Assembly (NCBI GenBank): GCA_021799255.1
Contig: JAJZAV010000002.1
Coordinates: 1 to 45,680 of the forward strand
Length of the DNA stretch: 45,680 nt
Reading direction: 5' to 3'
Source of the DNA: Bacillota bacterium
GTDB taxonomy: Bacteria > Bacillota > Bacilli > Alicyclobacillales > Alicyclobacillaceae
Shown here: piece after piece, positions 3,993 to 25,484 of the stretch
Layout: each line of letters opens with the position of its first letter
How positions within the stretch are numbered: the stretch's first letter is position 1
Program-made: the position numbers and the translations under genes
Notes under the pieces: model-generated
The model's input: the letters and a program-made list of their open reading frames with translations, nothing else
The model's database searches: none
What the model was told of the DNA's origin: nothing

Positions 3993-4466
3993 ATGCGCAA
4001 GTACAGATTCGCCAAGCAACTGTTCGGGTTTGAGAAGAGCGCGGTATACCGTGTGCTGGATGAACTGGAGACCGAGATCGCCGAACTTGCCGAAAAGGTA
4101 GAATCCCTTGGGGATCAACTGAAAGAATCAACCGCGCAGCGCGAGGAACTATCGTTGACTATCGCAGCTATGCGTCGACAACATATCCAAATGTTCGCTC
4201 AGAAAGACGGAAACGTGGAGCCCGTCACTGTGATGATTGGCCCGACTCGGACTCTTGGAGACATCACCGGTCTCATCGATTCCATGGAAGGATGTCCGCA
4301 TTTAATCCCAAAATTTAGAGTATTCCGTGATGGTTTTTATCGAGTCGACGGAAGTGCCGTGGACAAGGATAGACTCATCACGTGGCTACACTCGTTATCG
4401 GATGTTCGTGACACCATCGTGGAAGGTGAGACTCTGCACGTTTTGCCAAGAGGTGAATCCGCGTGA
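3993..4466 (+). CDS. DivIVA-like coiled-coil protein, partner of the glycosyltransferase
   Basis: A 157-residue soluble protein of unknown function. The N terminus (RKYRFAKQLFGFEKSAVYRV) resembles the lipid-binding DivIVA-type opening, where an FxGY-like motif is followed by a helix. Residues 25-70 form a heptad-rich coiled coil. Residues 78-157 form a small mixed alpha/beta domain (VTVMIGPTRTLGDITGLIDS and after) that I do not recognise. AGGAGGAC (start at about 3980) sets the ATG. Its stop overlaps the next start as GTGA at 4463-4466, so it is translationally coupled to the synthase and probably acts with it. A polar or scaffold role is inference from the N terminus only. Confidence 0.7.
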   Translation: MRKYRFAKQLFGFEKSAVYRVLDELETEIAELAEKVESLGDQLKESTAQREELSLTIAAMRRQHIQMFAQKDGNVEPVTVMIGPTRTLGDITGLIDSMEGCPHLIPKFRVFRDGFYRVDGSAVDKDRLITWLHSLSDVRDTIVEGETLHVLPRGESA

Positions 4467-6706
4467 ACGTGAGATTAGGAGTTAGTCACATCACCGAACT
4501 TGAGGGCCAAGTATTTGTTTCCTTGCAACCCTATCAATTGGCTGAAACCGGGGAACTGGTCGATCCGGTCGACCCCAACATCGCCCTCCTGATTTCCCCG
4601 CAAGAGGCTCGCAACCATCAAGTGCTACCGTTCTCGAAGTATGGGGAGTACTTGTTCGTGGCGGCCGCACGCCCGCACAATCTTTCGGACCTCAGTTTCA
4701 TCGAGTACATCGACCAACGGTGCATCGTGTGTCGAGCTGAACCCGAGGATATCCAAATCGCTCAGGACAGAGTCTACGGACTTACGTTGGACGAGGAGCA
4801 TGAACGACTCGGCTCCTACCTGCTTCGCACGGGGGCCATCACTAGTCAGCAACTGATTGCAGCCGTCGAACAACAGAAGACGGACAAGGCTGGGCAAAAG
4901 CTCGGTGCGATTCTTCTGCAACAGGGTTCGGCGACCCATTGGGACATCGCCGAAGCGGTTGCCGTGCAACGCGGGTACCCTCTCATCGATCTGCTCAACG
5001 ACTCACAGCGTGATGCCGAGAACGATGAAACATTAGAGTCCGTTTGGAATCTTGTTGAGCGAAGGTTTTGGTATCGGCACCTCGTTGTTCCTCTCGCTTC
5101 TGACGAGAACACCCTGACGATTGCGATAGTCGACGTTGAGGACAAAGAGGCTCTGTCTCAGTTGGAGAAGCAATCCGGTAGAAGACTCCGGGTTTTCGTG
5201 ACCGGATATAGGGACATCATGAGCGTGCTCAACGACCGATATGGAGACGAGGATGAGGAAGAGAGCAGGACCTCTTTACTCAAACTCAGCCCGGAAGACA
5301 GCGCAGCAACCCGTACGACCAAGGGGCAGATTATCACTCTGGCTGCCATTGGCGTTGCGCTTGTGGCTGGGTTCTTATTCAAATCCGTCCTGACAGGTAC
5401 CATCGTTGCCGGATTTATTGAGCTTCTCTATGCGGCAGCGAGTATCTTCCGTTTATGGGCGATGGTGGGTGCCGTGAAGACGGACTCTGAACTGGTGGTA
5501 ACCGAGGCGGATATGCAAACGGTGCCTCCGACCTCTCTCCCTGAATACACGGTTCTTGTACCCTTATATAAAGAAGCCGAGGTCCTGCCGACCTTGGCGA
5601 GCGCGCTTCAAGCGCTCCGTTATCCTAAGGATAGGTTGGATGTTAAGCTGCTTTTGGAGGAAGACGATAAGGAAACCATCGATGCTGCCATACGAGCGAA
5701 GTTGCCGAGCTACATGGAGATTGTCGTCGTCCCTTCGTCCGAACCGAAGACCAAGCCCAAGGCGTGCAACTACGGTTTAGCCAAGGCGCGAGGAGAGTAC
5801 GTGGTTATCTTCGATGCGGAAGACATTCCTGAGCCGGACCAACTGCTGAAGGCGGTCACCGTCTTCCGACAATCCCATGATGATCAGCTCGCGTGTATTC
5901 AAGCGAAACTCTCGTACTTCAACGACAAGCAAAACATTCTCACGAGATGGTTCACTGCGGAGTATGCGAATTGGTTCGAACTTTTGCTTCCGTCGCTTTT
6001 TCGTCTGGATATGCCGATTCCCCTTGGGGGTACTTCAAACCACTTCAGGACCGACGTCCTTCGGTCGTTGGGTGCATGGGATCCATACAACGTTACGGAA
6101 GACGCCGATCTCGGCGTGCGCCTGCACAAGGCCGGCTATCGCACGGGGGTAATGAACTCAACGACGTTTGAAGAGGCGAATTCGGACTTCGTCAACTGGA
6201 TTCGGCAGCGATCGCGCTGGGTCAAGGGATACATGCAAACTTGGCTGGTTCACATGCGTCATCCAATTCGACTGTGGAAAGAGATTGGTACCGTTGGGTT
6301 TTGGGGATTTCAGTTCACGGTTGGGGGCACGGCGCTCCAGTTCTTAATCAACCCAATCCTGTGGGCTATGACCGCCGCTTGGTTCATATTTGGTTCCGCC
6401 TACATGCAGCAGATATTTAGCGGATGGGTCTATTATTTGGGGAACCTTTCGTTGTTTCTGGGTAACGTAGCATTTACGTACGCTAACATGGTCGGGGTGG
6501 CGCGTGCCAAACAGTGGGACCTTGTGATATGGTCAGTCCTGTCGCCAGTTTATTGGTTGTTCATGTCTCTCGCGGCGTACAAGGCATTGTATCAGTTGAT
6601 AACAAAGCCATCCTATTGGGAGAAAACTGTGCATGGATTAGTCAGCGAAGATTATCGAAATAACTCAGACAGGTTCCGAGCATACGGTGCTACTGAGTCG
6701 GTTTAG
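4463..6706 (+). CDS. MshEN/GspE-N-domain family 2 glycosyltransferase (putative c-di-GMP-responsive polysaccharide synthase)
   Basis: A 747-residue membrane synthase. Residues 1-110 resemble the N-terminal domain of type II secretion ATPases. Residues about 114-175 carry the MshEN-like pattern (RLGSYLLRTGAITSQQL, then LGAILLQQG), a module known to bind c-di-GMP, and residues 190-260 look like a second GspE-N half. Two membrane helices follow (about 290-340), then a cytosolic GT-A domain with D451 in VIFDAEDIPEPDQ, TED at 545-547 and QRSRW at 582-586. This is the motif set of processive beta-glycosyltransferases such as BcsA and NfrB. Several C-terminal helices end the protein. NfrB carries a similar sensor at its C terminus; here the order is reversed. 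It is translationally coupled to the coiled-coil gene upstream and followed by a c-di-GMP riboswitch. It probably makes and extrudes an exopolysaccharide; the sugar is unknown. Confidence 0.85.
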   Translation: MNVRLGVSHITELEGQVFVSLQPYQLAETGELVDPVDPNIALLISPQEARNHQVLPFSKYGEYLFVAAARPHNLSDLSFIEYIDQRCIVCRAEPEDIQIAQDRVYGLTLDEEHERLGSYLLRTGAITSQQLIAAVEQQKTDKAGQKLGAILLQQGSATHWDIAEAVAVQRGYPLIDLLNDSQRDAENDETLESVWNLVERRFWYRHLVVPLASDENTLTIAIVDVEDKEALSQLEKQSGRRLRVFVTGYRDIMSVLNDRYGDEDEEESRTSLLKLSPEDSAATRTTKGQIITLAAIGVALVAGFLFKSVLTGTIVAGFIELLYAAASIFRLWAMVGAVKTDSELVVTEADMQTVPPTSLPEYTVLVPLYKEAEVLPTLASALQALRYPKDRLDVKLLLEEDDKETIDAAIRAKLPSYMEIVVVPSSEPKTKPKACNYGLAKARGEYVVIFDAEDIPEPDQLLKAVTVFRQSHDDQLACIQAKLSYFNDKQNILTRWFTAEYANWFELLLPSLFRLDMPIPLGGTSNHFRTDVLRSLGAWDPYNVTEDADLGVRLHKAGYRTGVMNSTTFEEANSDFVNWIRQRSRWVKGYMQTWLVHMRHPIRLWKEIGTVGFWGFQFTVGGTALQFLINPILWAMTAAWFIFGSAYMQQIFSGWVYYLGNLSLFLGNVAFTYANMVGVARAKQWDLVIWSVLSPVYWLFMSLAAYKALYQLITKPSYWEKTVHGLVSEDYRNNSDRFRAYGATESV

Positions 6707-6898: not shown

Positions 6899-6976
6899 AG
6901 GCAAACCTGATGAAAATCAGGGACGCAAAACTACAGGGGCTAACTGCACCGTGCGTGCATATGCCAGCCAGTTGCC
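6899..6976 (+). promoter_or_regulatory. Class I cyclic-di-GMP riboswitch (GEMM-I)
   Basis: The aptamer core is easily recognised. GGCAAACC begins at 6899, followed by a short hairpin (TGA-TGAAAA-TCA, whose GAAA lies in the tetraloop position), then the diagnostic GGGACGCAAAACTACAGGGG with CTAA after it, a second hairpin region with TGCAC/GTGCA, and the 3' element ATGCCAGCCAGTTGCC ending at 6976. GGCAA at the 5' end can pair with TTGCC at the 3' end to close P1. These are the conserved GEMM-I blocks of Firmicutes. It lies in the leader of the secreted glycoside hydrolase, just downstream of a synthase with an MshEN sensor, so c-di-GMP should control the hydrolase. Whether it is an ON or OFF switch cannot be decided by eye. 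Confidence 0.9.
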
Positions 6977-7050
6977 CAAAAGGAAATTCCAACTCACACG
7001 TGGATTCCTGTTTGGGATTCACGTTTTTGGTCCCCGAATTTTTTGGGGGA
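6975..7050 (+). promoter_or_regulatory. Riboswitch expression platform with SD-sequestering hairpin
   Basis: A long hairpin at 6975-7016 pairs CCCAAA with TTTGGG, AGGAA with TTCCT and CCA with TGG; its first two bases overlap the 3' strand of aptamer helix P1. Soon after come a GTTTTT tract (about 7023-7028) and a second hairpin in which TCCCC (7031-7035) can pair with GGGGA (7046-7050), part of the Shine-Dalgarno block GGGGGA (7045-7050) 8 bases before the ATG. Competition between P1 and the first hairpin, plus masking of the ribosome site, gives a plausible translational switch, possibly with some transcription termination. Confidence 0.6.
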
Positions 7051-7058
7051 ATTGAAAA

Positions 7059-9125
7059 ATGAATTTTGTTGGAATTTCCAGCAGGACCATGGCAGTTGCC
7101 CTCATAGCTTTTGGGGGCCAATTCGCGTACCATCCTACTGTACAGGCAACTCCTCAAAACTCCCCATCTTCAAATTTCGTTAATGTTCAAGACATACCTG
7201 TCACTCGTACGCAGTTTGGAGTGAATGTGGCGACATGGGACTACCAAATGCTAGATCCGTCAACGATTTCGTCAATTCAAACGTTAGGAACAGGAATCCA
7301 ACAGTTTCCTAACGATGGTGATTTATGGAATTGGAAGACAGATGTATCGAGGAGTTCCAACTCTCCAAACTCTCAATGGGACAACTTCAAAGAACCAGTG
7401 TCCCTTGACAAGTGGGGTGAGATTCTTCGCGAAACGGGTAATCAGGGACTGTACATAGTAGATTACGGGACGAACTCCACATGGACTGGTGGGGCGACGC
7501 CAGCTGATGCCAAGGCGGTCACGCAGTACATCGTCCAAAACAACCTACCAATTACGTCGATGGTCATTGGTAGTGAAGCATATGGAAACTGGAGGGCCAA
7601 TCTCCACAAGAACAAAACTCCTCAGGAATATGCTTTGGTAGCAAAGGAAATGGCGATTGCAATTCACTCGGTTGATCCTAGCATGAAGGTTGGCATAGAT
7701 CTGGTATGCCCTTCGCCTCAAGGCAACAGTCCTCAGGACCTGTATTGGAACCAAACCGTCTTGCAGGAAGATGCACCTTACATCCAGTTCGTAAGTCTCC
7801 ATAGCTATCTTTCGAACCAACTTTTAAGTGATTCAGGTTTACTTCAGTATTTGTCGGTCATTCCGACAATCATGAGTGAAGTTCACGCCGAAATGACTCA
7901 AGTTGCGCCGAAATATGCCGATCACATTCAAACGTGGATAACTGAGTTAAACCCATACGCTATGGGAACCCCGGCACAAAGCATTACTCCGGTTTATGGT
8001 GCGGCGTTGGCGGAGAGTGTTCTCCTGTTCCGCGCATGCGGGGCTACGCAGGTTGATTGGTGGAGTCTTCACGGCGGTGCTCATCCTGTCCTGCCAAACG
8101 GACAGTTGTCCAGCGAGGTGGACAACACACCTGGAACACCATATGGGACGAATGGCCTTTTGGCTGATGGCATGGGTCCTGAGCCTGCAACGAACACGCC
8201 CTATCCGGCTGCCCTGGCTTATGCACAAATAATGCAGGCAGTCCAAAACGGTGCTGAGTTAGACGTACACCTGGGTTCAACGTGGTTTGTTGCAAGGATT
8301 GCAAATCAACAAAGTAGCTCAACGTGGTTTATCATCAACAATTCGAATCTCACGCAAACTTACACGTTGGATGGAACCGAGTTTGTAGTCCCGTCAGCCT
8401 CCATGAAGTCTATAAGCTTGAGTCAGGCGGCGTGGCCTTATTCGGGAACAGGAACAGCGGCAGCGGCGACGGTAACGTCGCAGGTTTATAGCGGAGTTCC
8501 TCAAATATCGAGTGTGAACCCGTGCGTTTCACCAGGAGAAACAGTTACCGTCATAGGGAGTGGCTTTGGTGAGCAGCAGGGAAGCGGCTATCTTCAACTG
8601 CAGGACGGAACTACGAGTTGGGGTGCGCCTGGAAATGATGCGACTTTTAACGTGCTGTCTTGGTCTCCAAATAAGATAACCTTTGTTGCGCCATTCGCTC
8701 AGGGTGCTTGGAGTCTGATCCCAGGTACAGAGGCCAGCATCCAGATAGTCAGTGACAATCTAGGAGTATCCAATATAATGAACACAGAAGTTAGTGGGCC
8801 TGAAAAGCCAGTAGTCACCTCCACTTCGGTGAACAACATCTCCCCTGGTGAGATGGTTACCGTGAATGGTTCCGGATTTGGCGATATTCAGTCAGGCGGC
8901 TACGTTCATTTAGAAGACGATGGAGTTAACTGGGGTATGGTGGGAAATCAGGCTGTCTTCCATATCGTAAGTTGGAGTGATACTCAGATTCAATTTGTCG
9001 CGCCTGTACCGAGTGGACCTGGAGAGGCGTACAAGCTAGTGCCTGGCACGGAAGCTCAAATTACCGTCACCAACGGTGCCGGTCAGACATCTAACTCGCT
9101 AATTACCCTCGTGTCCGACAATTGA
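7059..9125 (+). CDS. Secreted glycoside hydrolase (clan GH-A-like) with two IPT/TIG domains, riboswitch-controlled
   Basis: A 688-residue exported protein. The N terminus has a signal-peptide-like segment (residues 1-31, ending near VQATPQ). Residues about 45-400 look like a TIM-barrel glycosidase: FGVNVATWDYQMLD opens the barrel, SMVIGSEAYGNW places a candidate acid/base Glu173 at strand 4, and WITELNPYAMG gives a candidate nucleophile Glu296 at strand 7. These are the positions used by clan GH-A families such as GH39 and GH51. Residues about 400-460 form a small beta domain. Two tandem IPT/TIG beta-sandwiches follow (about 481-580 and 585-688), each with SPGE-TV-GSGFG and a TSWG/NWG motif. 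The start is set by GGGGGA 8 bases upstream. In biofilm systems a dedicated hydrolase often accompanies the synthase (PslG in Psl, BcsZ in cellulose); its place after the synthase and a c-di-GMP riboswitch suggests the same role. The family assignment is by motif only. Confidence 0.75.
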   Translation: MNFVGISSRTMAVALIAFGGQFAYHPTVQATPQNSPSSNFVNVQDIPVTRTQFGVNVATWDYQMLDPSTISSIQTLGTGIQQFPNDGDLWNWKTDVSRSSNSPNSQWDNFKEPVSLDKWGEILRETGNQGLYIVDYGTNSTWTGGATPADAKAVTQYIVQNNLPITSMVIGSEAYGNWRANLHKNKTPQEYALVAKEMAIAIHSVDPSMKVGIDLVCPSPQGNSPQDLYWNQTVLQEDAPYIQFVSLHSYLSNQLLSDSGLLQYLSVIPTIMSEVHAEMTQVAPKYADHIQTWITELNPYAMGTPAQSITPVYGAALAESVLLFRACGATQVDWWSLHGGAHPVLPNGQLSSEVDNTPGTPYGTNGLLADGMGPEPATNTPYPAALAYAQIMQAVQNGAELDVHLGSTWFVARIANQQSSSTWFIINNSNLTQTYTLDGTEFVVPSASMKSISLSQAAWPYSGTGTAAAATVTSQVYSGVPQISSVNPCVSPGETVTVIGSGFGEQQGSGYLQLQDGTTSWGAPGNDATFNVLSWSPNKITFVAPFAQGAWSLIPGTEASIQIVSDNLGVSNIMNTEVSGPEKPVVTSTSVNNISPGEMVTVNGSGFGDIQSGGYVHLEDDGVNWGMVGNQAVFHIVSWSDTQIQFVAPVPSGPGEAYKLVPGTEAQITVTNGAGQTSNSLITLVSDN

Positions 9126-9726
9126 GTCTTCCGGTGGGCGTAACCGACAAATAGAATGAGCGTAATGCTTGAATAGCGTGAGTGAACAAAACGAAAAATA
9201 ACTGTCACTAGCCTGGGGGTCCGTTCACACGATTTTGTAGAACTCGAAAATTGCTTGTTAACCTCGAATGCGCACAGCCCGCTAACGATACGAGTTAATG
9301 CAATCTGTTGGACTCGGTTTACTGTGCGCGCTACTCACGCAGAAATGGAACTAAGGTACTATAAGGTACTAAGGTACTAAGGTACTGAGGTACTGATGTA
9401 CTGAGGTACTGATGTACTGAGGTACTGAGGTACTGAGGTACTGAGGTACTGAGGTACTGAGGTACGCGTGACTCGTGACCTTCAGGACTCAGACATGAAC
9501 GTCATTTGCCGTCAGGTTTTCTTTGAGTCTGGAATTGCAACGTTCAACGGATGTCCACTTGTCGTACATTTGCTTCCATTCTCGTTTGTTTCGATACGGG
9601 CTTGCCTAGAATAAGAGTCGACGCGGCTGTAATTTCAAAGCACAGCGTCCCGTGGTACAATAAATTAGGCTGTCTAGGTTGTTGAACGTTCGTTCGCATG
9701 CGATAAAAGTCCCGGCAGGCATTATT
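9126..9726. other. 600-base intergenic region with a tandem repeat
   Basis: Non-coding spacer between the hydrolase and the GT-C-like gene. It contains the 8-bp tandem repeat (9353-9465) and a TACAAT at 9656-9661 that could serve as a -10 for the next gene, although the -35 (TTTCAA at 9633) is poor. I see no hydrolase terminator with a U-tract. Confidence 0.5.
9353..9465. repeat. 8-bp tandem repeat array (GAGGTACT, about 14 units)
   Basis: One AAGGTACT unit (9353-9360), a 2-base interruption, three AAGGTACT units (9363-9386), then GAGGTACT and GATGTACT alternating (9387-9418), then five GAGGTACT units (9419-9458) and a final partial unit. Each unit contains the palindrome GTAC. The homogeneous right half suggests recent copy-number change by slippage. 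It lies about 200 bases before the GT-C-like gene and is not in a reading frame. Confidence 0.95.
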
Positions 9727-11406
9727 ATGCAAGTGTTCAGAAATGGGGGGAAGCTTCGCTTGAGCCTTGACGCAAGTTATGTTCATGCCAACGTCGAGCC
9801 AGAGTCTGAGCGGACGAGTTCTTTAGAGTTGGGGGTGCCTCGTTTCCGGCGAGAGTCGGTTATTTTGGCGTTTTTCTCCGGTGTATTATCCGCAATTTTA
9901 GCAGTGCTGTTAGTTTTCAAATATAATCTAGTTTATGGAGATGCGCTCACTCGCGTACTCAACGCGTATTATGTGATAAGGGGTAACTTTCACCTTGCTG
10001 GTATAGGCTTTGTTTGGAATCCATTTCCTAGTTTAATGGAACTTCCATTCGTCTTACTGCACAGCTTGTGGCGGCCTATTTTGGCAGATGGGTTGCCGGG
10101 CGCCCTGATAAGTTGTCTGTTTTCGGGAGTCACCGTGTACTATGCCCATCGAATTTTCGTAATTTTTGGGGCGCAGCGTAAACTTCGGATCGTTTGGAGT
10201 TTGCTTCTCATGGTTAATCCCCTCTTGCTCTTGTATGGTGCGAACGGAATGAGCGATATCATGATGGTTGGTGCATTCTTGGGTGCCACTGAAGGAGTTA
10301 TTCGCTACGTCGAAACGAACCGACTCGCCGCACTGATATCGTCTGCCGTATGGCTTGCAATGGCACTTGGAATTCGCTATGAAGCTGTGCCGTTTGGTTT
10401 TTTTCTTGCGGTAGCCCTGGCCTTGGTGCTTCGGCGTCAGCGAAAAGGCATCTCAGAGATAGTGGCCTCATCTTCCATTGTCCTGTTCCCTGTGGTCTGT
10501 GCCGGGATTATATGGATTATACTTAATGGAATGATTATGCATGACCCATTCTATTTCATAAATTCAGAATACGGAAATGCTGCCCAGACCTCCGCTGGTA
10601 ACTACACGACTAAGCTTACCCTGTTTGCATATCACGACCTTCCACATGCTATTGAAGCGGTTGGAAGGTTTGACTATTTATATTTGCCAGCACTGTTGAT
10701 TCTTCCGTTCCTACTCTTGATTCCCATGTTTAAGCACCAACATGGTGTGGGCTGGATAATAAGCATGTGCATGATCGCCGTCCCCCTGTTTCAAGTAGAC
10801 TTGCTGTTCAAGGGGAACTCAGCCGCTTGGGCGAGGTTTTTTATCGAGTACATTCCGTTTGGTGCCCTCGGGTGTGCCTATCTGATTCGGTTTGGCCGAA
10901 GATGGATTTGGGGAATGGTTGCTACTGGTCTGATGGTCATAGGAGATATCTCAACTACATTTGCCCTTAACAATCCAACTTACGGACATGGAGATTACGA
11001 GATAGTACGATTGGTTGAACAGAATAAGCCTGATCCGGCCCATGCTTCCTATGTGGGTCAGGCGATCTTAGTGTCGGAAAGAAAACAGGCCTCTGACGTA
11101 GCTAAGTTTATTAACTCACATCCAAAGATGATCGTTCTTTTGGATAACTTTACCGACTACCTAGTCGTTCCTCTCATTAAGAATCCAAACCAAATTATCG
11201 TGACGAATGATAGAGACTTCCAGAGTTTACTACTTAATCCCAGAGGAAGAGTTAGTGCGTTTTTGGTACCTCGAAATCAGGGCGTTTCACACTTGAATGC
11301 AATCAACGTCCAATACCCGAATTTGTGGGCGCGCGGGGCATCTTGGGCTCGTCTGCTAAAGACTTTTCCAGGTCCGTACGAGTACCGAATGTACGCAATT
11401 CGGTAG
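9727..11406 (+). CDS. GT-C-like polytopic membrane glycosyltransferase
   Basis: About 559 residues with roughly ten hydrophobic segments starting after residue 45 (VILAFFSGVLSAILAVLLVF). Just after the first helix comes an acidic loop, NLVYGDALTRVLNAYY. GT-C enzymes (PMT, ArnT, GT39 and GT83-like) place a catalytic Asp in this first external loop. The C-terminal 150 residues are a soluble, probably external domain. Such enzymes transfer a sugar from a polyprenyl-phosphate donor to protein or glycan outside the membrane. A TTG at 9679 in the same frame would add 16 residues; neither start has a strong ribosome site, and ATG 9727 has GGCAGG about 8 bases away. A donor-making GT2-GtrA protein is encoded at 23.1 kb, so the two could work together (inference). 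The exact family is uncertain. Confidence 0.65.
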   Translation: MQVFRNGGKLRLSLDASYVHANVEPESERTSSLELGVPRFRRESVILAFFSGVLSAILAVLLVFKYNLVYGDALTRVLNAYYVIRGNFHLAGIGFVWNPFPSLMELPFVLLHSLWRPILADGLPGALISCLFSGVTVYYAHRIFVIFGAQRKLRIVWSLLLMVNPLLLLYGANGMSDIMMVGAFLGATEGVIRYVETNRLAALISSAVWLAMALGIRYEAVPFGFFLAVALALVLRRQRKGISEIVASSSIVLFPVVCAGIIWIILNGMIMHDPFYFINSEYGNAAQTSAGNYTTKLTLFAYHDLPHAIEAVGRFDYLYLPALLILPFLLLIPMFKHQHGVGWIISMCMIAVPLFQVDLLFKGNSAAWARFFIEYIPFGALGCAYLIRFGRRWIWGMVATGLMVIGDISTTFALNNPTYGHGDYEIVRLVEQNKPDPAHASYVGQAILVSERKQASDVAKFINSHPKMIVLLDNFTDYLVVPLIKNPNQIIVTNDRDFQSLLLNPRGRVSAFLVPRNQGVSHLNAINVQYPNLWARGASWARLLKTFPGPYEYRMYAIR

Positions 11407-16603: not shown

Positions 16604-17320
16604 TCAAATCACGCCAGAACTCGAAGTGGGTGAAGTCAAAAACTGATAACCACCGCCCCGAATGGTGATGATGTACTTCGGATGAGCGGGATCCCGTTCG
16701 ATTTTCTTGCGTAGATTGCTGATGTGCACCATAACCGTGCGCACGTCGCCGGCGGCATCGGACCTCCAGACCAGCTCATACAGTTCCTCCGGGCGATACA
16801 TACGCCCTGGATTCTCCGCCATTACTTTAAGTATCTGGAATTCCTTTGCGGATAAGTACACCGTGTCGTAATCCGATCTTACGGCGAAACCTTCCTCGTC
16901 GATTTCGAGCCCAGCTATGCGTAAAACTCGATTTTGAGTTGGGGTTGACTTGAGCCCTCGGTATCGTCGCAAATGAGCCCCTACGCGAGCCACGACTTCA
17001 CTGGGATTAAACGGTTTCGCAATATAATCGTCAGCGCCAAGACCGAGTCCAACGATTTTGTCGGAGCCATCTGCTTTGGCGCTCATAAACATAATCGGGA
17101 GGTCCGACATCGTGCGGATTTCTTTACAAATCTCAAATCCGTTTGCGTTCGCCAACATGACGTCGAGCAGTACGAGGTCGACTTCCTGGCGATGTAGAAC
17201 CGTGAGTGCGTCCCACCCATCACGCACGATGGTTTTATAGTCGTTGCGCGTCAAATAAAGCGACACGAGTTCAGCGATGTCATTGTCGTCTTCTACGATG
17301 AGAATGGTACCGACACTCAT
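16604..17320 (-). CDS. OmpR/PhoB-family response regulator
   Basis: About 238 residues. The receiver domain (residues 1-120) has the acidic pair in ILIVEDDND, the phospho-acceptor Asp in DLVLLDVML, the Thr/Ser position in PIMFMSAKA and the Lys in DDYIAKPFNP. The C-terminal winged helix (about 135-232) contains the typical LSAKEFQILKVMAENPGRMY and VRTVMVHISNLRKKIE segments. I chose ATG 17320 because GGGAGGT lies 8 bases upstream; a longer frame to 17353 lacks support. It is immediately upstream of the HstK-like kinase on the same strand and is its likely phosphorylation partner. Target genes are not evident; the exosortase locus and glycan genes nearby are candidates. Confidence 0.9.
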   Translation of the reverse strand: MSVGTILIVEDDNDIAELVSLYLTRNDYKTIVRDGWDALTVLHRQEVDLVLLDVMLANANGFEICKEIRTMSDLPIMFMSAKADGSDKIVGLGLGADDYIAKPFNPSEVVARVGAHLRRYRGLKSTPTQNRVLRIAGLEIDEEGFAVRSDYDTVYLSAKEFQILKVMAENPGRMYRPEELYELVWRSDAAGDVRTVMVHISNLRKKIERDPAHPKYIITIRGGGYQFLTSPTSSSGVI

Positions 17321-17723
17321 CCGGTTAGACCTCCCGTGCAGTTGGCAAGTCATAGATGTCCGTTCGTCTGAGGGTGAACGAGATGGAACAACGAATTCTA
17401 TGTAGTCGGTTAAATTATCAGGTATATCTAAAATATACTTTAACTACATTAAAAAAACAATAGTATCGTTTAAACTCTGACACAAATCGACAAACATCTA
17501 GCAATCACCGTCAGGGAGCGCTACTGGTAGGCAACTCGAGGCGAAGACTGGGAGCGGCGAATATGCAGGAGAGTGTAGGTACGACATGTGACCGACAGTC
17601 TGTGATAGGGCGACAAACGGGTTATCGAGAACCGCTACTCTATAGATAGAACAGCGGTTCTCATTTTACGCCTGGTGGCACCATTGTCAACGGAACGTTG
17701 TTCCAGCGTGCGCCGACAGGGGT
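17321..17723. other. Intergenic region with inverted repeat
   Basis: About 400 bases between two leftward genes. The half near the response regulator (17400-17470) is AT-rich and probably holds its promoter, though no single -35/-10 pair stands out. The other half carries the hairpin at 17627-17662. No supported gene is present. Confidence 0.5.
17627..17662. repeat. 10-bp inverted repeat, possible terminator
   Basis: GAGAACCGCT (17627-17636) and AGCGGTTCTC (17653-17662) are perfect complements with a 16-base spacer. It lies about 60 bases past the end of the leftward exosortase gene. On that strand the hairpin is followed by GATAACCC rather than a U-tract, so intrinsic termination is uncertain. 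Confidence 0.45.
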
Positions 17724-19403
17724 TTAGGAGGATGAGACGTTTGTGGATGGGTGCAACACGACCGAAGAGAACTTAGATACGAACTGATGGAAACCGACCA
17801 GAGACTTGGCGTTCATGGCAGAACTCAGGTTCAAATCCGCCGCGTGCACGGAGCCTGCCTTTGCGTTTGCCCAAAGGGTCGGAAGGGATGCCGCCACTTG
17901 GTGGACCAACGGGGAATTCTGGCTCACGCCGTATTGAACTGGCGCCGCAAACTCCGCTCGGATGTAAGCATTACGACCGTTGTATTTGACCGCGTAGATG
18001 TAGGATACGTCTTCGTACAGGCTGGTGGATCCGCCCACCGTGCTTGGCGCAAGCAACACGGCGAACGAGTCACCGCTGATGCCCGACGACACCTTGAACG
18101 GATGCTGACCGACGATGGAATTTCCGTGAAACAAGAGGCAGTTGTGGACTCCGTACGCGACGAGGGAATTAAGATTGTACGTCCACCACATTTCCGCCAT
18201 CGCGTATTGACCCTTCGGATTGGAGTACGCGTACGCTTCACCGTACGACCCGGGGCCGAGGACGGACGCTTCGTTGTACACTCCGAGAAGGCTTCGAGTG
18301 TACCCCGGCATCTGGGGCATCAGCGACGACAACTTATCCGTGTTCACAGGGATTGGTGTTCCGAACGATCCGGACACCCATGTGTACAGCGGGAAGATCC
18401 CAACGGTTAAGAGGGCCGCCGTCGAAATGCTCAAGAGGGATCGGCCCCATCCCGGTGTGATGAGAAAACGTCCGGCATCAGACGGGGTTTGCGTCAGAGA
18501 GTCCGCGTTCATGCCAATTCGCTTGCCGATGGAGGCAAGGATCACGAGGATGACGGCGAAGAGAACCATTCCCAAGATCTCGTGCAGAAATCCGAACGTG
18601 AAGGTCGCGGAGAATAAGTGCCCGGAAATCAGAAGAATCCCCAACCTTGCAAGATTCAAGATGACAGCTAACGCGCCGCCAATCACGATGAGCCAGATCT
18701 TGCGAATCCAGTTGCCGCCGAAGGCCACGAGAATCACAGGAAGAAGAATCACCATGGCGAGGAAACTGTCCGCTCCGCTGCACGCACTCGAGACGTCAAC
18801 GAGCAACCAGTTTCCGTGATTTTGAACGAGATACTCGCCATATGTCGTGGTGGTTTTGAGCCACGGAACGGAGGGTGTCACTGCCATGATGCTGTGGTTG
18901 GCAAGCCAATAGAGCGTAGGATTCGTGGCGTTCACGATTCTTGTGTACAACGGTGGCCATGCTAGGAGAAGGTATACGAGCGGTTTCCAAAGCCTTGGCG
19001 TCGCACCGACGCCGAAGAGGAGCCAGCCCATGGACAGTGCCCAGAACGGCCAGACCAGGAGTCCGACGTTGTCGGCCACGAGGACGCTAGACCACTTGTG
19101 CAATCCAGCGAACAATACGCCTCCGCTAAGAGCGGCGGCAAATAGACCAAGGATGCCGTTTAGCTCGCCATCGTCTTCGTACTTGGGAGTTTTCCAAAGT
19201 TCTATGGCTCCCCAGGCGAACGCGAGTATCGGTATCCAAATCAGGTACGCATAGGGAGTGTCCGCTAAGGCGTGATCGAGCAATGGCAAACCGTATGGCG
19301 CTACAGGGACGACGCTGACCAAAACCCAAATTAGGATCCAGAGTCGGTTCCTCGCAACTGTCTTGTTATTCACGGTTCTCGTCTGAAGGACGTTGGTGCT
19401 CAT
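17724..19403 (-). CDS. Exosortase fused to an EpsI-like domain (copy 1)
   Basis: A 559-residue membrane protein. Residues about 20-300 contain eight or so helices with the exosortase/archaeosortase triad: Cys208 in VSSACSGADSF, Arg253 in ILNLARLGILL and His274 in FGFLHEILGMVLF. Exosortases are membrane transpeptidase-like enzymes that recognise short C-terminal tags (PEP-CTERM and relatives) at the outer face of the membrane. Residues about 320-559 are an EpsI-like extracellular domain (LSSLMPQMPGYTRSLLGVYN and VHNCLLFHGNSIVG), the usual exosortase companion, here in the same chain. A weak AGAAGG box precedes the ATG. It is divergent from the N-anchored small protein at 19741 and clearly paralogous to the fusion at 21176; the predicted substrate at 20480 is between them. 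Confidence 0.85.
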   Translation of the reverse strand: MSTNVLQTRTVNNKTVARNRLWILIWVLVSVVPVAPYGLPLLDHALADTPYAYLIWIPILAFAWGAIELWKTPKYEDDGELNGILGLFAAALSGGVLFAGLHKWSSVLVADNVGLLVWPFWALSMGWLLFGVGATPRLWKPLVYLLLAWPPLYTRIVNATNPTLYWLANHSIMAVTPSVPWLKTTTTYGEYLVQNHGNWLLVDVSSACSGADSFLAMVILLPVILVAFGGNWIRKIWLIVIGGALAVILNLARLGILLISGHLFSATFTFGFLHEILGMVLFAVILVILASIGKRIGMNADSLTQTPSDAGRFLITPGWGRSLLSISTAALLTVGIFPLYTWVSGSFGTPIPVNTDKLSSLMPQMPGYTRSLLGVYNEASVLGPGSYGEAYAYSNPKGQYAMAEMWWTYNLNSLVAYGVHNCLLFHGNSIVGQHPFKVSSGISGDSFAVLLAPSTVGGSTSLYEDVSYIYAVKYNGRNAYIRAEFAAPVQYGVSQNSPLVHQVAASLPTLWANAKAGSVHAADLNLSSAMNAKSLVGFHQFVSKFSSVVLHPSTNVSSS

Positions 19404-19740
19404 CCCTGCGAACCTTCTCTCTCGAATATTCTTGTGTAATTCGGAAATCTCTGCTTCAAAGAATATGGGAGGTGGAATCAGGTGTCAACCGCCCATGGAC
19501 GCCACGGAAGAGCGCAAATCCCGCACAAACGCTACGGTCTTTAACAAGCAAAATGGAACTTAATCAAACGATGGCATCACGGGATATGGTCGAGAGCGAA
19601 TTGTTACTCTATTATGAACACAAGGGAAACTCTTTTGTAAGGTTAGTGCCCGACTCGAGAGCAATGCTAACCTAGATTATGATGGAAAATGTGCCCGATG
19701 AGACCGTGGGAATCTCTATCGAAGGAGATAAGATAAAACC
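19404..19740. other. Divergent regulatory region of the exosortase locus
   Basis: About 340 bases between the leftward exosortase and the rightward small protein. An imperfect hairpin with a perfect 7-bp stem (AGGTTAG 19640-19646, CTAACCT 19667-19673) lies in the leader of the rightward gene, with the palindrome CTCGAG in its loop. No clear promoter or known riboswitch was recognised. Confidence 0.4.
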
Positions 19741-20247
19741 ATGAACCCATACCGCCGAACTGCGGCGATTGGACTCTCTGCAATCGTTCTTATTATCTTG
19801 GCGCTGTTTGCCATTGTCATGGGAATGCGCCCTCACAGTGTCCCAAGGGCGCCGAGTACTGGTTTTGCGACACAGCCCAAGGGACAGCAAGCGGTCATTC
19901 GATTTTCGAGTAGCGTGACGATAGACCTAGCAAGCAATTCATCGGATCTAAAACCGGGACGGAAGGTAACATTTTACCTTTCGGTTCACCCGATTGGATT
20001 TCGAGCACACCAGTCTAATGATGGACAGGTTGCGTTCAAGGGCAAGGAACTGATTCCCGTAGTGGGCAAAGTCGAGTCGCAATTGCCATCCGGGAATGCG
20101 TATCGGTACAAAGTGGTGATTCCGTCGATCATCTTACGGCAACATCCGAAACGGCTCTTTGTGGCGGCAAGTTATGCGCTTTTTCAGGTAAAGAACGAGG
20201 CGCCTGCAGGTATATATTCTACGTCGCTCGAAACCATTGCCCCTTGA
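19741..20247 (+). CDS. N-terminally anchored surface protein related to the exosortase substrate
   Basis: 168 residues. One hydrophobic segment (about residues 9-29, IGLSAIVLIILALFAIVMGM) should act as an uncleaved anchor or signal peptide. The remainder is a polar, beta-rich external domain without known motifs. By eye it aligns with the neighbouring tagged protein: VTFYLSVHPIGF against LNFYFYNHAPSF, and PSIILRQHPKRLFVAASY against PSQYLSTPPSHLWVFSNY. The two look like paralogues with different anchoring. It lacks a C-terminal tail. AAGGAGATA about 11 bases before the ATG supports the start. No function is known. Confidence 0.75.
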   Translation: MNPYRRTAAIGLSAIVLIILALFAIVMGMRPHSVPRAPSTGFATQPKGQQAVIRFSSSVTIDLASNSSDLKPGRKVTFYLSVHPIGFRAHQSNDGQVAFKGKELIPVVGKVESQLPSGNAYRYKVVIPSIILRQHPKRLFVAASYALFQVKNEAPAGIYSTSLETIAP

Positions 20248-20365
20248 TTGCGAAGACCCCAAGTTATTCTATTTAAAAACCTAAAGATTTTTTTAACAAC
20301 GTATATTGGGGAATTTAGGTCCCATCGCGCCACCGCGTGCTACACTTTTATCCATAGGAGAGCAT

Positions 20366-20464
20366 GTGAAGGCAGCAATGGAACCGCAATCAAGAGATAG
20401 AGACAAACTGAAACGGAGCATGGGATCCGCAATATGGACTGAATCATCTGAACACGTTGTTTAA
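20366..20464 (+). CDS. Possible 32-residue small protein upstream of the tagged protein
   Basis: A GTG at 20366 follows AGGAG (20356-20360) by 5 bases and opens a 32-codon frame ending TAA at 20462-20464, only 15 bases before the preferred start of the tagged protein. The peptide is charged (MEPQSRDRDKLKRSMGSAIW in the middle) and has no membrane segment. It could be a real small protein, a translated leader, or chance. Ribosome-site quality and tight spacing are the only evidence. Confidence 0.35.
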   Translation: MKAAMEPQSRDRDKLKRSMGSAIWTESSEHVV

Positions 20465-20479
20465 ACGGGGGTAATGGTC

Positions 20480-21052
20480 ATGAAACGTTGGTTACAGGGA
20501 GGTCTTGCGGCGGGCGTCACTGCTGCCGCCCTCTGTGGGGGAGCCACGGTGGCAATGGCCGCTGGTTATCCATCACAGATTCAGGTCACGATCACGCAGG
20601 CCACGGGTGGCGATTCCAGTTTGCAGCCCGTTCCGCCGGGGTCCATCACACCACCAGGGTTGAACTTCTATTTTTACAATCATGCTCCCAGCTTCACGCC
20701 AACGGGCAATTACGGTCAGGGTACGTTCTCATACAACGGCCCGAGCGGCACGGTGACAACCTTTCCGCAGGCCACCAGTGTAACCTCTGCAGGGATGAGC
20801 AAGGGTGGCTACGTGTTTAATGTTGGCGTACCTTCCCAGTATTTGTCCACGCCTCCATCTCACCTTTGGGTATTCTCAAACTACCAATGGGAGAATTCTG
20901 CAGGAGAACCTCAAAACAATTACAGCACGCTAGAGAACTTGGTACAGCAACTGCCGGAGGTTCCTCTTGCGGCGGCGCTTCCAGCGGCGATTGGCGCCGT
21001 GTTGGTGATTCGCCGTCGCAAGAACCGCCTCAAGGCGATGGCGGCCGAATAG
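20480..21052 (+). CDS. Exosortase substrate candidate with PEP-CTERM-like tail
   Basis: 190 residues. It has a cleavable signal peptide (residues 1-28, ending VAMAAG), a beta-rich, Gly/Ser/Pro-rich body, and a C-terminal sorting-type tail. The tail consists of LPEVP (residues 158-162), a short hydrophobic stretch LAAALPAAIGAVLVI and a basic cluster RRRKNR, followed by about seven residues. Tripartite motif-TM-Arg tails of this kind are the substrates of exosortases (classic VPEP). Two exosortase-EpsI fusions flank the gene on either side. ATG 20480 is preferred over ATG 20474 because GGGGG at 20467-20471 is 8 bases away. The body resembles the N-anchored neighbour. Classical LPXTG sorting is less likely because the motif is LPEVP and exosortases, not sortases, are adjacent. 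Confidence 0.75.
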   Translation: MKRWLQGGLAAGVTAAALCGGATVAMAAGYPSQIQVTITQATGGDSSLQPVPPGSITPPGLNFYFYNHAPSFTPTGNYGQGTFSYNGPSGTVTTFPQATSVTSAGMSKGGYVFNVGVPSQYLSTPPSHLWVFSNYQWENSAGEPQNNYSTLENLVQQLPEVPLAAALPAAIGAVLVIRRRKNRLKAMAAE

Positions 21053-21104
21053 GGCCCGGTTCCGAGACGACTTTGAGAGTGGTGTGGAGAGAATGAGTCG
21101 GTCT

Positions 21105-21132
21105 GAGGATGGGGTCTAATTGCCCCATCCTC
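21105..21132 (+). terminator. Strong hairpin between tagged protein and exosortase 2
   Basis: GAGGATGGGG (21105-21114), loop TCTAATTG, CCCCATCCTC (21123-21132): a perfect 10-bp stem followed by TTCGTATC. The U-tract is short, so it may be a partial terminator or mRNA-stabilising hairpin that lets the abundant substrate be expressed above the enzyme downstream. Confidence 0.6.
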
Positions 21133-21175
21133 TTCGTATCGAAGATACCCATGATGATTTGTGGAGGCGTTTCTG

Positions 21176-22951
21176 GTGTTGTCCATCGACAACGTGAAAT
21201 TACGAGGAATCGGCCTCTTCACCGCGAAACGCGACAAGCTTGGCCTTCATATCGCCATCTGGATTGCAGGAGCTGTTCTGCCATTCACCCCATTTGCTGG
21301 GATCTTGCTTCAATACTCGTTGGCCGATACGCCTTACGCGTACTTGATTTGGGTGCCGATTTTCTCGTTTGTTTGGGCGGCGTGGATTCTTAGGCGGCCG
21401 GGAGTTTATAACGACGATAGTGAACTGAACGGGATTGTCGCGATTCCCGTTATGGTTTTCTGCGCGGTTTTTCTGTTGCACGGGTTTTCTCAGAATTGGC
21501 GCTACGAGTTTCTAGGGAGACAATTGGGACTCCTTTTCTGGCCGATTTGGGCGCTTTCCGTGGCGTGGCTGATGTTTGGGGTAGGAGTCACGCGCTGGCT
21601 TTGGAAGCCGCTCTCGTATTTGTGGCTGTCCTGGCCTCCTCTGTACTCAGGCATTGTCAATATTACGAATCCTCCTTTGGACAATATTGCGAACGGTTCG
21701 TTGCGGGGCCTCGCCCACGTGGCGTCTTGGATAGTTCCAACATCGACCATTGGGACGTATAACGTAGTTCACGCGGGCGTAGGCACGCCGATTTACGTAA
21801 GCTCCGTGTGCAGCGGGGCGGACAGCTTTATCGCAATGGTCACGTTGGCGCCCATCATCTTGGTGACGTTCCACGGTAGAGCAATGAAGAAGGTCCTTGT
21901 TCTCCTGTTCGGAATCGCCCTGGCGATACTCGGGAATCTCCTGAGACTGGGACTGATTGTTTTCGCGCTTCACGTTTTCGGCCCTGTCTTCGCGCTCGAT
22001 ATCCTTCATCCCGTCTTGGGCATCCTTCTGTTTTTGGGTATACTCTGGTTGTTACTCGTGGCTGCTAAGCTGATTGGACTCGAGTCCGACATTCCGAAAA
22101 GGACCGCGAATCTCCACCATCCGGGGTACGGGCGGATGGGAGTGACGGCGCTGTCGGCCGTCGCTCTGACGACGTCGCTTTGGGTCTTCCAACCCGTAGG
22201 GAAAGGAACTCCGGCGACGCCCATACCGCTGAAGACTTCCAATCTCTCCGTGGTGATGGGGGAGATGCCTGGATGGAGCCGGAGAATCATCGGATCGTAC
22301 AACGAATCGTCCATCCTGGGAACGGGGTCCAAAACCACGGCAATGACGTACACCACCCTTCAGGGGGACTACGCATTGTGCGAGTTGTGGTGGACGTACC
22401 AACCGTTGGCTCTTCAGTCCTACGGCGTTCAGGACTGTCTGCTCTTTCATGGGTATACTATCTTGGGGCACGAGCAGATGAATCTGACCAAGGATATCAA
22501 AGCGAATGTGTATCTGGCGGAATTGCCCGCCAATCAACCGGGAGGACCGCGGCAGGCATTCCTCGACACGGAGTACTCCTTCCTGAGCAAGTATGACGGA
22601 AGGGACGCGTACCTGCGCGTTGAGACTGCAACCCCCGTTGCCAACGTGCCGGCAAAGGGAGCGGCAACGGTGGCGAAGCTGCACCAGTTCATGAGCCAGG
22701 TGCCGTACCTGACGCGGCCGCCGTATCCTGCCGCCGTTCATTTTCACGGAGTTACCACCCTCAGGGCGGTTCACCTATATAATTACTTCATCTTTGTTCG
22801 TCAGTTTGCCGGTAACCTGTTTGGCCCGTCGAACGTTCTTCATTATCCTCCCTTTGCAAACGGTGGCGCGGCCCAGGCCCCGTCGACGAGGGTATTTGAG
22901 GTAAAACCAACGACCACTTCGGTCCATTCGAGGACAAATGCGCGACATTAA
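21176..22951 (+). CDS. Exosortase fused to an EpsI-like domain (copy 2)
   Basis: About 591 residues, same architecture as the leftward copy. The exosortase core has Cys212 in VSSVCSGADSF, Arg257 in LGNLLRLGLIV and His278 in LDILHPVLGILLF. The EpsI-like C-terminal half has VVMGEMPGWSRRIIGSYNES and VQDCLLFHGYTILG, and this copy has a longer tail after residue 500. The N-terminal LLQYSLADTPYAYLIWVPIF matches copy 1 closely (LLDHALADTPYAYLIWIPIL), so the two are paralogues. GGAGG at 21163-21167 is 8 bases before GTG 21176; a GTG at 21161 is possible but has the box inside the frame. It is downstream of the tagged protein on the same strand and is the most likely enzyme for that substrate. Confidence 0.85.
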   Translation: MLSIDNVKLRGIGLFTAKRDKLGLHIAIWIAGAVLPFTPFAGILLQYSLADTPYAYLIWVPIFSFVWAAWILRRPGVYNDDSELNGIVAIPVMVFCAVFLLHGFSQNWRYEFLGRQLGLLFWPIWALSVAWLMFGVGVTRWLWKPLSYLWLSWPPLYSGIVNITNPPLDNIANGSLRGLAHVASWIVPTSTIGTYNVVHAGVGTPIYVSSVCSGADSFIAMVTLAPIILVTFHGRAMKKVLVLLFGIALAILGNLLRLGLIVFALHVFGPVFALDILHPVLGILLFLGILWLLLVAAKLIGLESDIPKRTANLHHPGYGRMGVTALSAVALTTSLWVFQPVGKGTPATPIPLKTSNLSVVMGEMPGWSRRIIGSYNESSILGTGSKTTAMTYTTLQGDYALCELWWTYQPLALQSYGVQDCLLFHGYTILGHEQMNLTKDIKANVYLAELPANQPGGPRQAFLDTEYSFLSKYDGRDAYLRVETATPVANVPAKGAATVAKLHQFMSQVPYLTRPPYPAAVHFHGVTTLRAVHLYNYFIFVRQFAGNLFGPSNVLHYPPFANGGAAQAPSTRVFEVKPTTTSVHSRTNARH

Positions 22952-23081
22952 CCCTTTTTTAACTAGATTTTCTCAATTCTTAAGCTGTGACAAACAAAAA
23001 CTGTGGTAGTCTCATTGCATGGGTGTGAATATTTGTGTGACTTTTGAGATGCGCTGTGGATGTCGCAGCGGGGGTGGATTC

Positions 23082-24203
23082 GTGAATTTGACAGTAGTGG
23101 TTCCTACTTATAATGAAAAAACCAACGTGATTTCGGTCGCGAATGCCATTCATAACTGCCTTGCTGGAGAGTCGTTTGAGGTACTGTTTGTGGATGACAG
23201 TACGGACGCCGAGTCCTTGGACATCCTCAATTCGTTAGCCGCTAAGCATTCCTTCGTCAGGGTGTTGCACCGACATGGCGAGAAGGGATTAGGAACGGCC
23301 GTCGTACGCGGGTTCGAAGAGGCCAAGGGCCAATTCGTTGCCGTCATGGACGCGGACATGCAGCATCCTCCCGAGGTACTTGCACAAATGCTGGAGCGCA
23401 TTCGTGAGGGATACGACATCGTGATCCCGAGTCGATTCATTCCTGGCGGAGACGACGGAGGGCTTTCTCCCATCCGCAAGTTCATCTCGTGGGGAGCCCG
23501 AGTGATGGGGCAAGCGCTTTTGAAGCGGGTTCGCCGAGTGACGGATCCAACCAGCGGATTCTTCATGATGCGCAAAAACGTGATACAGGGGGTCGTCCTT
23601 CAGCCCATCGGATGGAAGATTCTCATGGAAGTTCTCGTGCGTGGGCATTATCAGACGGTGCTTGAGATTCCGTACTGCTTTCACGAGCGCGAGGCGGGGG
23701 CTTCCCACATGTCGTTTGGCGAGCAGGTGAATTATCTTCGGCATCTCGCCAGCCTGTTCCGGAGTAGCCCGGAGGACAGGCGGTTTTACGTGTTCTGCAT
23801 GGTGGGTGGGAGCGGGGTCATTCTGAATCAGTTGATTTACGTAGCCCTGGTCCATATGCATGTGATGCTAATCATGGCGAGCGTCATCTCTGCAGGGATT
23901 GTTCTCGTGTCCAACTTCCTGCTGAACGATAGGTTCACGTGGAAGGACGCAGCAAAGGCGCAGAAAGGTGCCCGATTCCTTCGGTTTGCCACGGTTTCCG
24001 TGGTGGGCATTGGCATCAACGAACTGGTGTTGGCGTTGCTCGCATATTCGCTTTCCGTGCACTACTTGTTGGCAAACCTCGGTGGGATTGCGGTTGCCAC
24101 CATCTGGAACTACTTCGCGAATCACTACCTGACGTGGAATATGAAGAGGGAACCCCTTTCGCACGCTCGACCCACTCCCGAAATTGTGTATAAGCGAGCT
24201 TAG
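23082..24203 (+). CDS. Polyprenyl-phosphate glycosyltransferase (GT2) fused to GtrA
   Basis: 373 residues. Residues 1-225 are a GT-A domain of the DPM1/ArnC type (LTVVVPTYNEKTNV, VLFVDDSTDAE, AVMDADMQHPPEVL and the TDPTSGFFMMRK segment). The C-terminal 130 residues are a GtrA-like domain with four helices (FCMVGGSGVILNQLIYVALV to ANHYLTWN). GT2 enzymes of this type load a sugar on polyprenyl phosphate, and GtrA proteins are thought to help move or hand on the lipid-linked sugar. GTG 23082 has GGGGGTGGA just upstream; an ATG at 23019 would add 21 residues not seen in the family. It follows exosortase 2 on the same strand after a 130-base gap. It could supply the GT-C-like enzyme at 9.7 kb for surface glycosylation. 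Confidence 0.85.
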   Translation: MNLTVVVPTYNEKTNVISVANAIHNCLAGESFEVLFVDDSTDAESLDILNSLAAKHSFVRVLHRHGEKGLGTAVVRGFEEAKGQFVAVMDADMQHPPEVLAQMLERIREGYDIVIPSRFIPGGDDGGLSPIRKFISWGARVMGQALLKRVRRVTDPTSGFFMMRKNVIQGVVLQPIGWKILMEVLVRGHYQTVLEIPYCFHEREAGASHMSFGEQVNYLRHLASLFRSSPEDRRFYVFCMVGGSGVILNQLIYVALVHMHVMLIMASVISAGIVLVSNFLLNDRFTWKDAAKAQKGARFLRFATVSVVGIGINELVLALLAYSLSVHYLLANLGGIAVATIWNYFANHYLTWNMKREPLSHARPTPEIVYKRA

Positions 24204-24632: not shown

Positions 24633-25484
24633 GTGGCAACGTTGCGGGATGATCATCGGAAGAAATTGGCGCGTACGGGGGTCTCGTTGTTGGGGAGTTC
24701 GCTTGTTCTTCTCGCAACGTGGGGAGGTTCTTCCGTTGCGCTGGCAAACACCAACCCCATCCAGAACACCATTCAGAATAAGGTGGCTATAGAACCGACG
24801 GAGACCGTCATGGTGGTAGGGGGATCGGTGGCTCACGGTTGGGCGGATCCTACACGCGACTCGTACATCCGTCGCAGCTTTGCGATGTTGTCTGAATCCA
24901 CGCACGTCAACTACCAATATGACGATCAGAGCATACCGGGCTGTCCCGCAGTGCGGATCAGTTCGACGACCTTTCAAAATTGGCTGAATCAAGACCAGCC
25001 GAACGTCGTGATCATCTCGTGGGGCATTCTTGACGATATTCATAATCATACGCCACTCGCAGACTTCCAAACGACCATCCACGACGAAATTGCCGCGTCC
25101 TTGCAACATCAGGCCGTCGTGTTTGTCGTAACGCCGCCGGTTGTTCCCGCGAACGCAGACAAGTGGCACTCGTTGTTCGAGCAGTATGTCTCGGCAGAGA
25201 GGGCCGCGGCGAATTCGTTTTCCAGTCCGAACGTTCATTTCGTGCCCTTGAATCGCGATATGGCTTCCTATATGCAGATGAAAAACCTGTCGCTTTCCAA
25301 CTACTCGGTTGGAGGATGGCATCCGAACGCTGCAGGGCATGAATTAGCCGGCATACTTCTGGATAAGGCTATGGTTCAGATGCTCGGCAGTCGACCAATC
25401 GAGTTTGTACGGAAGGGGAGTGAATGGAAGCACGGGTTCACTAGCGCAATCCGAGGTGCGGGTCGCGCTTCCCTCACGTTCTAA
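24633..25484 (+). CDS. Secreted SGNH/GDSL-like hydrolase
   Basis: 283 residues with a signal-peptide-like N terminus (hydrophobic residues 16-38, ending VALANT). SGNH blocks are visible: MVVGGSVAHGW places the nucleophile Ser65 in a GGS rather than GDS context, the block around VVIISWGILDDIHNH resembles block III, and GGWHPNAAGHELAG carries the catalytic His230. Members hydrolyse or transfer acyl groups on glycans, lipids or peptidoglycan outside the cell. The GTG start at 24633 has GGAGAGGA immediately upstream; a TTG at 24642 is an alternative. It follows the exosortase/glycosyltransferase genes on the same strand and may tailor acetyl groups on the surface glycan (inference). Confidence 0.8.
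   Translation: MATLRDDHRKKLARTGVSLLGSSLVLLATWGGSSVALANTNPIQNTIQNKVAIEPTETVMVVGGSVAHGWADPTRDSYIRRSFAMLSESTHVNYQYDDQSIPGCPAVRISSTTFQNWLNQDQPNVVIISWGILDDIHNHTPLADFQTTIHDEIAASLQHQAVVFVVTPPVVPANADKWHSLFEQYVSAERAAANSFSSPNVHFVPLNRDMASYMQMKNLSLSNYSVGGWHPNAAGHELAGILLDKAMVQMLGSRPIEFVRKGSEWKHGFTSAIRGAGRASLTF

Follow-up and report, generated by a model that had tools for sequence, protein, structure and literature searches.

PEP-CTERM tails were described as confined to bacteria with an outer membrane and as absent from Firmicutes and Actinomycetes (Haft et al, 2006; PMC1569441). What, then, might two exosortase-like genes do on either side of a small gene for an exported protein in a genome of the Bacillota? 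We examined this locus in a window of 45,680 nucleotides, which is one entire contig of a 3.67-Mb genome that is assembled in 337 contigs and is 92% complete. The genome falls into the same family as Alicyclobacillus mengziensis (Alicyclobacillaceae) and represents an acid-mine relative of Alicyclobacillus. Omp85/BamA was found in none of the 61 genomes of relatives searched and in 7 of 14 control genomes, and for this reason we take the host to be monoderm; the Bacillota host proposed in an earlier note on this DNA is thereby borne out. We consider it probable that the locus is part of an exosortase-type system for C-terminal sorting that is coupled to exopolysaccharide synthesis, has a dedicated and a general branch, and operates in monoderm and mostly acidophilic Bacillota.

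The two large open reading frames (ORFs), 17724-19403 and 21161-22951, point outwards and have two small genes between them (genes are named here by their first coordinate; Table). Their products are 39% identical over ~560 aa and exceed the cut-offs of both PF09721 (Exosortase_EpsH; 68.7 bits for 17724 and 66.6 bits for 21161 against 25.7) and TIGR04178 (45.3 and 38.3 bits against 23). Cys217, Arg262 and His283 (21161 numbering) are invariant in 27 of 27 aligned exosortases, as are Asn259 and His271, and the predicted model of 21161 (predicted local distance difference test, pLDDT, 74.7) contains a helical transmembrane core. By sequence, both proteins are members of the exosortase/archaeosortase superfamily, in agreement with the earlier note, which had described two paralogous exosortases with intact Cys/Arg/His residues flanking a small secreted protein. 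Translation of 21161 probably begins at GTG 21176, given that the initial GTG of the ORF overlaps the GGAGG. Both window proteins remained below the cut-offs of the named NCBIfam subfamilies (XrtA, D, G, H, M, R, S, T, V, W, X, Y, cyanoexosortases and archaeosortases), and the exosortases of relatives gave the same NCBIfam families as the window proteins; that no subfamily was reached supports the suggestion of a distinct exosortase type.

The same note had called both enzymes EpsI fusions, and this did not hold. We did not detect a match to EpsI (PF11984) in any C-terminal domain among 19 proteins, nor in any ORF of 4 genomes at E ≤ 10; an EpsI identity of the domain is thus unsupported, and a distant relation to EpsI is possible. 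The C-terminal ~200 residues are predicted to form a beta-rich domain following the last transmembrane helix, with weak likeness to LpqN/MTC28 and helix-grip folds, and the domain is absent from some Pel-clade enzymes (L037, L048-L050). Searches of the PDB by sequence and by fold (Foldseek), and of viral folds, yielded no significant relative. In one relative, a broken third exosortase copy lies beside two intact ones (L029, about 12570-13140; G042:C126:43473-44038), which suggests duplication and loss.

A signal peptide of the AxA type (ATVAMAA) and the C-terminal tail LPEVPLAAALPAAIGAVLVIRRRKNRLKAMAAE mark the 20474 product; the tail is laid out as LPEVPLAAALP, a hydrophobic stretch and RRRK, and the predicted structure of the product was too poor for use (pLDDT 41.8). 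Tails beside the exosortases of relatives align as [LMVAG]PE[VATI]P[YFLWI]A..(L/F)P, a hydrophobic stretch and then R/K, with one P invariant and E, P, A and P nearly invariant. A profile search of the 61 relatives recovered further copies distant from exosortases, on bodies that are unrelated to one another, among them CBM6/CBM11/Big_2, GH16 with CBM6 and CBM56, GH30 with F5/8C, Hcp-like, and twin-arginine ferritin-like. The window's own genome holds at least seven credible tails, on contigs C26, C140, C190, C201 (the window), C203, C288 and C289, and a weak eighth on C105. The window protein gave no match to PEP-CTERM (TIGR02595/PF07589) up to E = 10, and this family was absent among those listed for relatives. 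The tail differs from VPEP, as had been claimed, and it also accompanies the enzyme across the order and phylum surveys described below. As with PEP-CTERM, it occurs together with an exosortase across genomes and on unrelated bodies. Judged by its conservation and distribution, the tail, in general form [LMVT]PE-x-P-[YFWLI]-A…RRR, is a real sorting signal.

An Hcp-like domain (PF05638) is found on a tailed exported protein of a Gram-positive (L085, 4124-4717), and a ferritin-like protein combines a twin-arginine signal with the same C-terminal tail (L102, 2834-3712). Because of this latter pairing, folded cargo of the twin-arginine (Tat) pathway may also enter the system. The second small ORF between the exosortases, 19741-20247, was not mentioned in the earlier note. 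Its product had no family matches in Pfam/NCBIfam model scans, and it is perhaps a permanently anchored or decoy version of the substrate.

Tail and enzyme occur together. In 59 genomes of the order, an exosortase was present in 16, each of which (16/16) had at least one tail, and 41 of the 43 exosortase-negative genomes had none (Fisher p = 1.4e-12). The tail model was partly built from these surveyed genomes, so held-out genomes matter most. One of them, G064, lies outside the building sets of both models and has an exosortase and a tail about 20 bp apart. Among 398 Bacillota, full-length exosortases of this kind were detected only in G000, G221, G388 and G430, and motif-bearing tails only in the same four (p = 1e-7 with the window's own genome left out); six further tail matches cover only the hydrophobic/basic part, from profile position 8 or later, and are missing the motif. 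The apparently exosortase-free G005 has an exosortase that is cut by a contig end. The earlier note had held that homologous loci lacking any tailed protein would speak against its proposal. This refuting outcome did not arise: among 22 exosortase loci of sufficient length, 21 contain a tailed gene, and G052, where the locus has none, encodes two tailed proteins elsewhere in its genome, on different contigs. A seemingly tail-less Pel locus (L048) has a tailed protein in an unlisted frame. Holders of related exosortases include A. mengziensis, Alicyclobacillus sp. SP_1 and Sulfobacillus harzensis, most others being metagenome bins, and a plasmid search by tblastn for related exosortases gave no match. 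A distant exosortase-like protein is encoded in another Bacillota genome (L149 in G079, 6014-7216). In its vicinity are a DivIVA-like gene and a GT2-GtrA gene that shares 50% identity with window 23019, and G079 yielded no tail.

We then considered how two enzymes would share these tails. A tree of the catalytic region shows clade A, to which 17724 belongs, as well as clade B and a Pel-linked clade, with a few enzymes on lineages of their own. The 17724 enzyme groups with G015_7379, G050_2502, G042_3699, G048_7875 and the enzyme of G052. Next to every clade B enzyme lies a representative of a single protein family whose tail reads [LI]AA[AL][LI]P, and the neighbour of 21161 has a tail of this type. 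In G042, G048 and G050 the clade A enzyme, next to the B enzyme, adjoins its own P[YF] tail protein. The position that follows PE-x-P switches between aliphatic and aromatic residues 3 times on the exosortase tree, as against 4-8 times in 200 shuffles. Genomes with a clade A enzyme hold 2-8 tails, and order genomes with other types only hold exactly one, which is adjacent (p = 2e-4); proteins with PEVP[YF]AG tails are scattered in the genomes that hold the 17724 clade. Because tail type follows clade and clade A genomes hold several tails, the best reading is that 21161 would be dedicated to the 20474 product and 17724 would act as a general enzyme for scattered tailed proteins.

The enzymes are also linked to exopolysaccharide genes. 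Outside the window, 19 of 22 loci adjoin either a synthase in which MshEN is fused to a family-2 glycosyltransferase (MshEN-GT2; 13 loci) or a PelF-type operon (6 loci), so that two exopolysaccharide machines with a link to cyclic di-GMP (c-di-GMP) recur beside one enzyme family. PelF-type operons were recognised by PF11997 plus GT1, and the other pel gene names follow from gene order and size. PelD of Gram-positive-type pel clusters binds c-di-GMP. Binding of c-di-GMP by MshEN domains has been described (PMC5013675), and earlier work also characterised the pel cluster of a Gram-positive (PMC7112168). Homologues sharing 46-65% identity with the window synthase (4463-6706) occur in 13 further exosortase loci. 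Together with the genes for the DivIVA-like, TIG-domain and ~550-aa membrane proteins, the synthase gene lies 6-15 kb from the window exosortases.

From these data we infer a pathway in which tailed proteins would be exported by Sec, and by Tat in at least one relative, after which the hydrophobic C-terminal segment with its basic cytoplasmic end would hold the exported protein in the membrane. The Cys/Arg/His centre would cut at or near [LMV]PE-x-P, and the cut protein would be released to, or joined onto, a cell-surface acceptor, probably polysaccharide- or lipid-linked. The 21161 enzyme would serve the adjacent LPEVPLAAALP protein, and 17724 would serve unlinked proteins with [LM]PEVP[YF]AG tails. 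A more specific version, which we regard as tentative and rather doubtful, is that the exosortase is a transpeptidase that couples cargo to the growing polysaccharide of the linked c-di-GMP-controlled synthase, whether MshEN-GT2 or Pel, or to the lipid carrier of this polysaccharide, and so would build a protein-decorated matrix instead of sortase wall anchoring. In that case the dedicated enzyme and the small exported protein would form a structural component of the synthase, and loading of glycan-binding and glycan-cutting cargo (CBM6, GH16, GH30) would fall to the general enzyme.

Several observations weigh against a cleaving system with a dedicated and a general enzyme. The 21161 enzyme is not firmly placed in the tree, where its joining clade B was not rejected (approximately unbiased test, p-AU 0.44), no AG-tail gene adjoins 17724, and joint inheritance of neighbours explains part of the matching between clade and tail. 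The two exosortase-negative genomes of the order survey that do carry tails, G044 and G051, have 8 and 10 of them in assemblies that are 91% and 88% complete; a distant exosortase was sought in both and none was found, and an assembly gap is the likeliest cause. Their tails (L092-L096 and L101-L107) are of the PEVP[YF]AG type. No solved structure matches the model. The window gene order by itself could also be read as the earlier note had read it, with the two exosortases acting jointly on the one substrate that they flank, and an A and a B enzyme do share one locus in several relatives. We consider this unlikely. The claim of one enzyme pair with one substrate is unsupported in a genome with at least seven credible tails and with clade and tail type matched; in G052, which lacks a B enzyme, two tails occur away from the locus of the clade A enzyme, and each paralogue of G042, G048 and G050 has a neighbouring tail of its own type.

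Other explanations concern the tail itself. It shares a common tripartite plan with LPXTG signals, some tails contain LPETP, and one relative's tail just exceeds the LPXTG_anchor cut-off (16.3 against 15.9 bits), so that the tails might be LPXTG-like signals cut by a sortase, with the nearby exosortase being incidental. However, we found no PF04203 sortase in the window's own genome, which is 92% complete, and G042, G045, G046, G048 and G050 likewise have tails without one. Many sortase-positive genomes are without tails, which track the exosortase instead, and the window protein matches no LPXTG model; this makes a sortase origin very improbable. It seems quite improbable as well that the tail does no more than anchor the protein in the membrane or mark it for assembly, with the exosortase homologue having another role in polysaccharide export that involves no cutting. 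The strong exopolysaccharide linkage would fit such a role, and processing in this system is inferred only, but a plain anchor needs neither a nearly invariant PE-x-P nor strict co-occurrence with the enzyme. The fully conserved triad also argues against this reading, as does ArtA of Haloferax, a known relative that is required for tail processing (PMC11980579).

The remaining window features are listed with the others in the Table. The MshEN domain, known from secretion and pilus ATPases, is here fused to a GT2 synthase, and the DivIVA-like gene overlaps the synthase start. Directly beside the exosortase locus, a response regulator (16604-17353) lies next to a 1692-aa protein (11512-16590, minus strand) that, judged by eye, has parts resembling a Ser/Thr kinase, an ATPase and a GAF domain and, at the C-terminus, a histidine kinase; this kinase-like protein may control the exosortase locus.

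Table. Features of the window relevant to the proposed sorting system
Feature	Coordinates	Strand	Basis
DivIVA-like coiled-coil protein, conserved partner of polysaccharide synthase	3993..4466	+	PF05103 E=9e-4 (under cut-off); 13 exosortase loci encode homologues
Membrane polysaccharide synthase, MshEN (c-di-GMP receptor type) fused to family-2 glycosyltransferase	4463..6706	+	PF05157 81 bits, PF13632 97 bits
TIG-domain protein, probably exported, adjoins synthase	7059..9125	+	PF01833; homologues in 4 exosortase loci
~550-aa membrane protein, weak GT39/PMT likeness, conserved synthase partner	9679..11406	+	PF13231 22.4 bits (under cut-off); 12 exosortase loci encode homologues of 33-41% identity
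Clade A exosortase carrying a C-terminal domain; would act generally on PEVP[YF]AG tails	17724..19403	-	559 aa; PF09721 68.7 bits; triad conserved
Small protein, N-terminal transmembrane segment, tail-less paralogue of substrate	19741..20247	+	Alignment with 20474 product; C-terminus at point where tail would begin
Exported, proposed dedicated substrate: signal peptide, ~130-aa body, C-terminal sorting signal	20474..21052	+	192 aa; body aligns with relatives' exosortase-adjacent tailed proteins
Tail-coding segment around LPEVPLAAALPAAIGAVLVIRRRKN	20945..21034	+	Tail profile E=2.6e-11 and 4.1e-9
Exosortase, B-like, proposed dedicated enzyme for 20474 product, C-terminal beta-rich domain	21161..22951	+	596 aa; PF09721 66.6 bits
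GT2-GtrA type sugar transferase, downstream of exosortase 21161	23019..24203	+	PF00535 106 bits, PF04138 86 bits
SGNH/GDSL hydrolase, possible glycan or lipid esterase; system membership uncertain	24633..25484	+	PF13472 45 bits

Exosortases in Gram-positives have a precedent in XrtG/Firmicu-CTERM, which also occurs in Firmicutes beyond Lactiplantibacillus: XrtG, Firmicu-CTERM and two glycosyltransferases are annotated in Lactiplantibacillus (PMC12854382), and this set resembles the present one in combining an exosortase-family enzyme, a CTERM protein and glycosyltransferases in a Gram-positive. The enzymes described here differ in scoring only 25.1 and 19.3 bits against the XrtG (TIGR03110) cut-off of 102.75 and in their length of ~560 aa as compared with the 187 positions of that model. 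A multi-cargo branch is additionally present, and Firmicu-CTERM was not among the tail matches listed. By motif (PE-x-P), the closest tail signature is PExPT-CTERM (TIGR04200) of the XrtJ system, although only 1 of 19 tails matches it, weakly (best single match E = 0.0057), and XrtJ was absent among the exosortase model matches listed. XrtD, XrtT and XrtW are longer exosortases with an extra C-terminal part and have a similar total length, and the XrtW match spans 30-373 of 21161; here, however, the scores are 36, 22 and 28 bits against cut-offs of 400, 250 and 425, and the C-terminal part is unmatched by EpsI PF11984. On these model scores, no named exosortase or CTERM family fits the system. 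Sortase/LPXTG systems likewise use a C-terminal signal and a cysteine enzyme for cell-surface display, but their enzyme is unrelated and the window's own genome has none. We did not find a description of the system in the openly accessible literature on Gram-positive exosortases or on PEP-CTERM in Alicyclobacillus, and a genome comparison of bioleaching bacteria reported an exosortase only in Leptospirillum within its set (PMC5418355).

The tail model annotates dozens of uncharacterised surface proteins in acid-mine bacteria, and in A. mengziensis, Alicyclobacillus sp. SP_1 and S. harzensis the action of an exosortase on its substrate can be tested in a cell with a single membrane. The system also resembles PEP-CTERM/EpsH, with which it shares the exosortase superfamily, a tripartite tail, the presence within a genome of many cargo bodies unrelated to each other, association with exopolysaccharide genes and environmental hosts (PMC1569441). 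It differs in that there is no outer membrane, the PE-x-P-[YFL]-A tail misses the PEP-CTERM models and the enzyme lies under every XrtA-type cut-off. The definition of PEP-CTERM as an outer-membrane trait (PMC1569441) contributed to the view that cargo is delivered to this membrane or passes across it. Here, an exosortase system with multiple cargoes occurs in bacteria without Omp85, some of them also without sortase, and an outer membrane is therefore not needed; polysaccharide synthesis is the element that PEP-CTERM systems and the monoderm system have in common.

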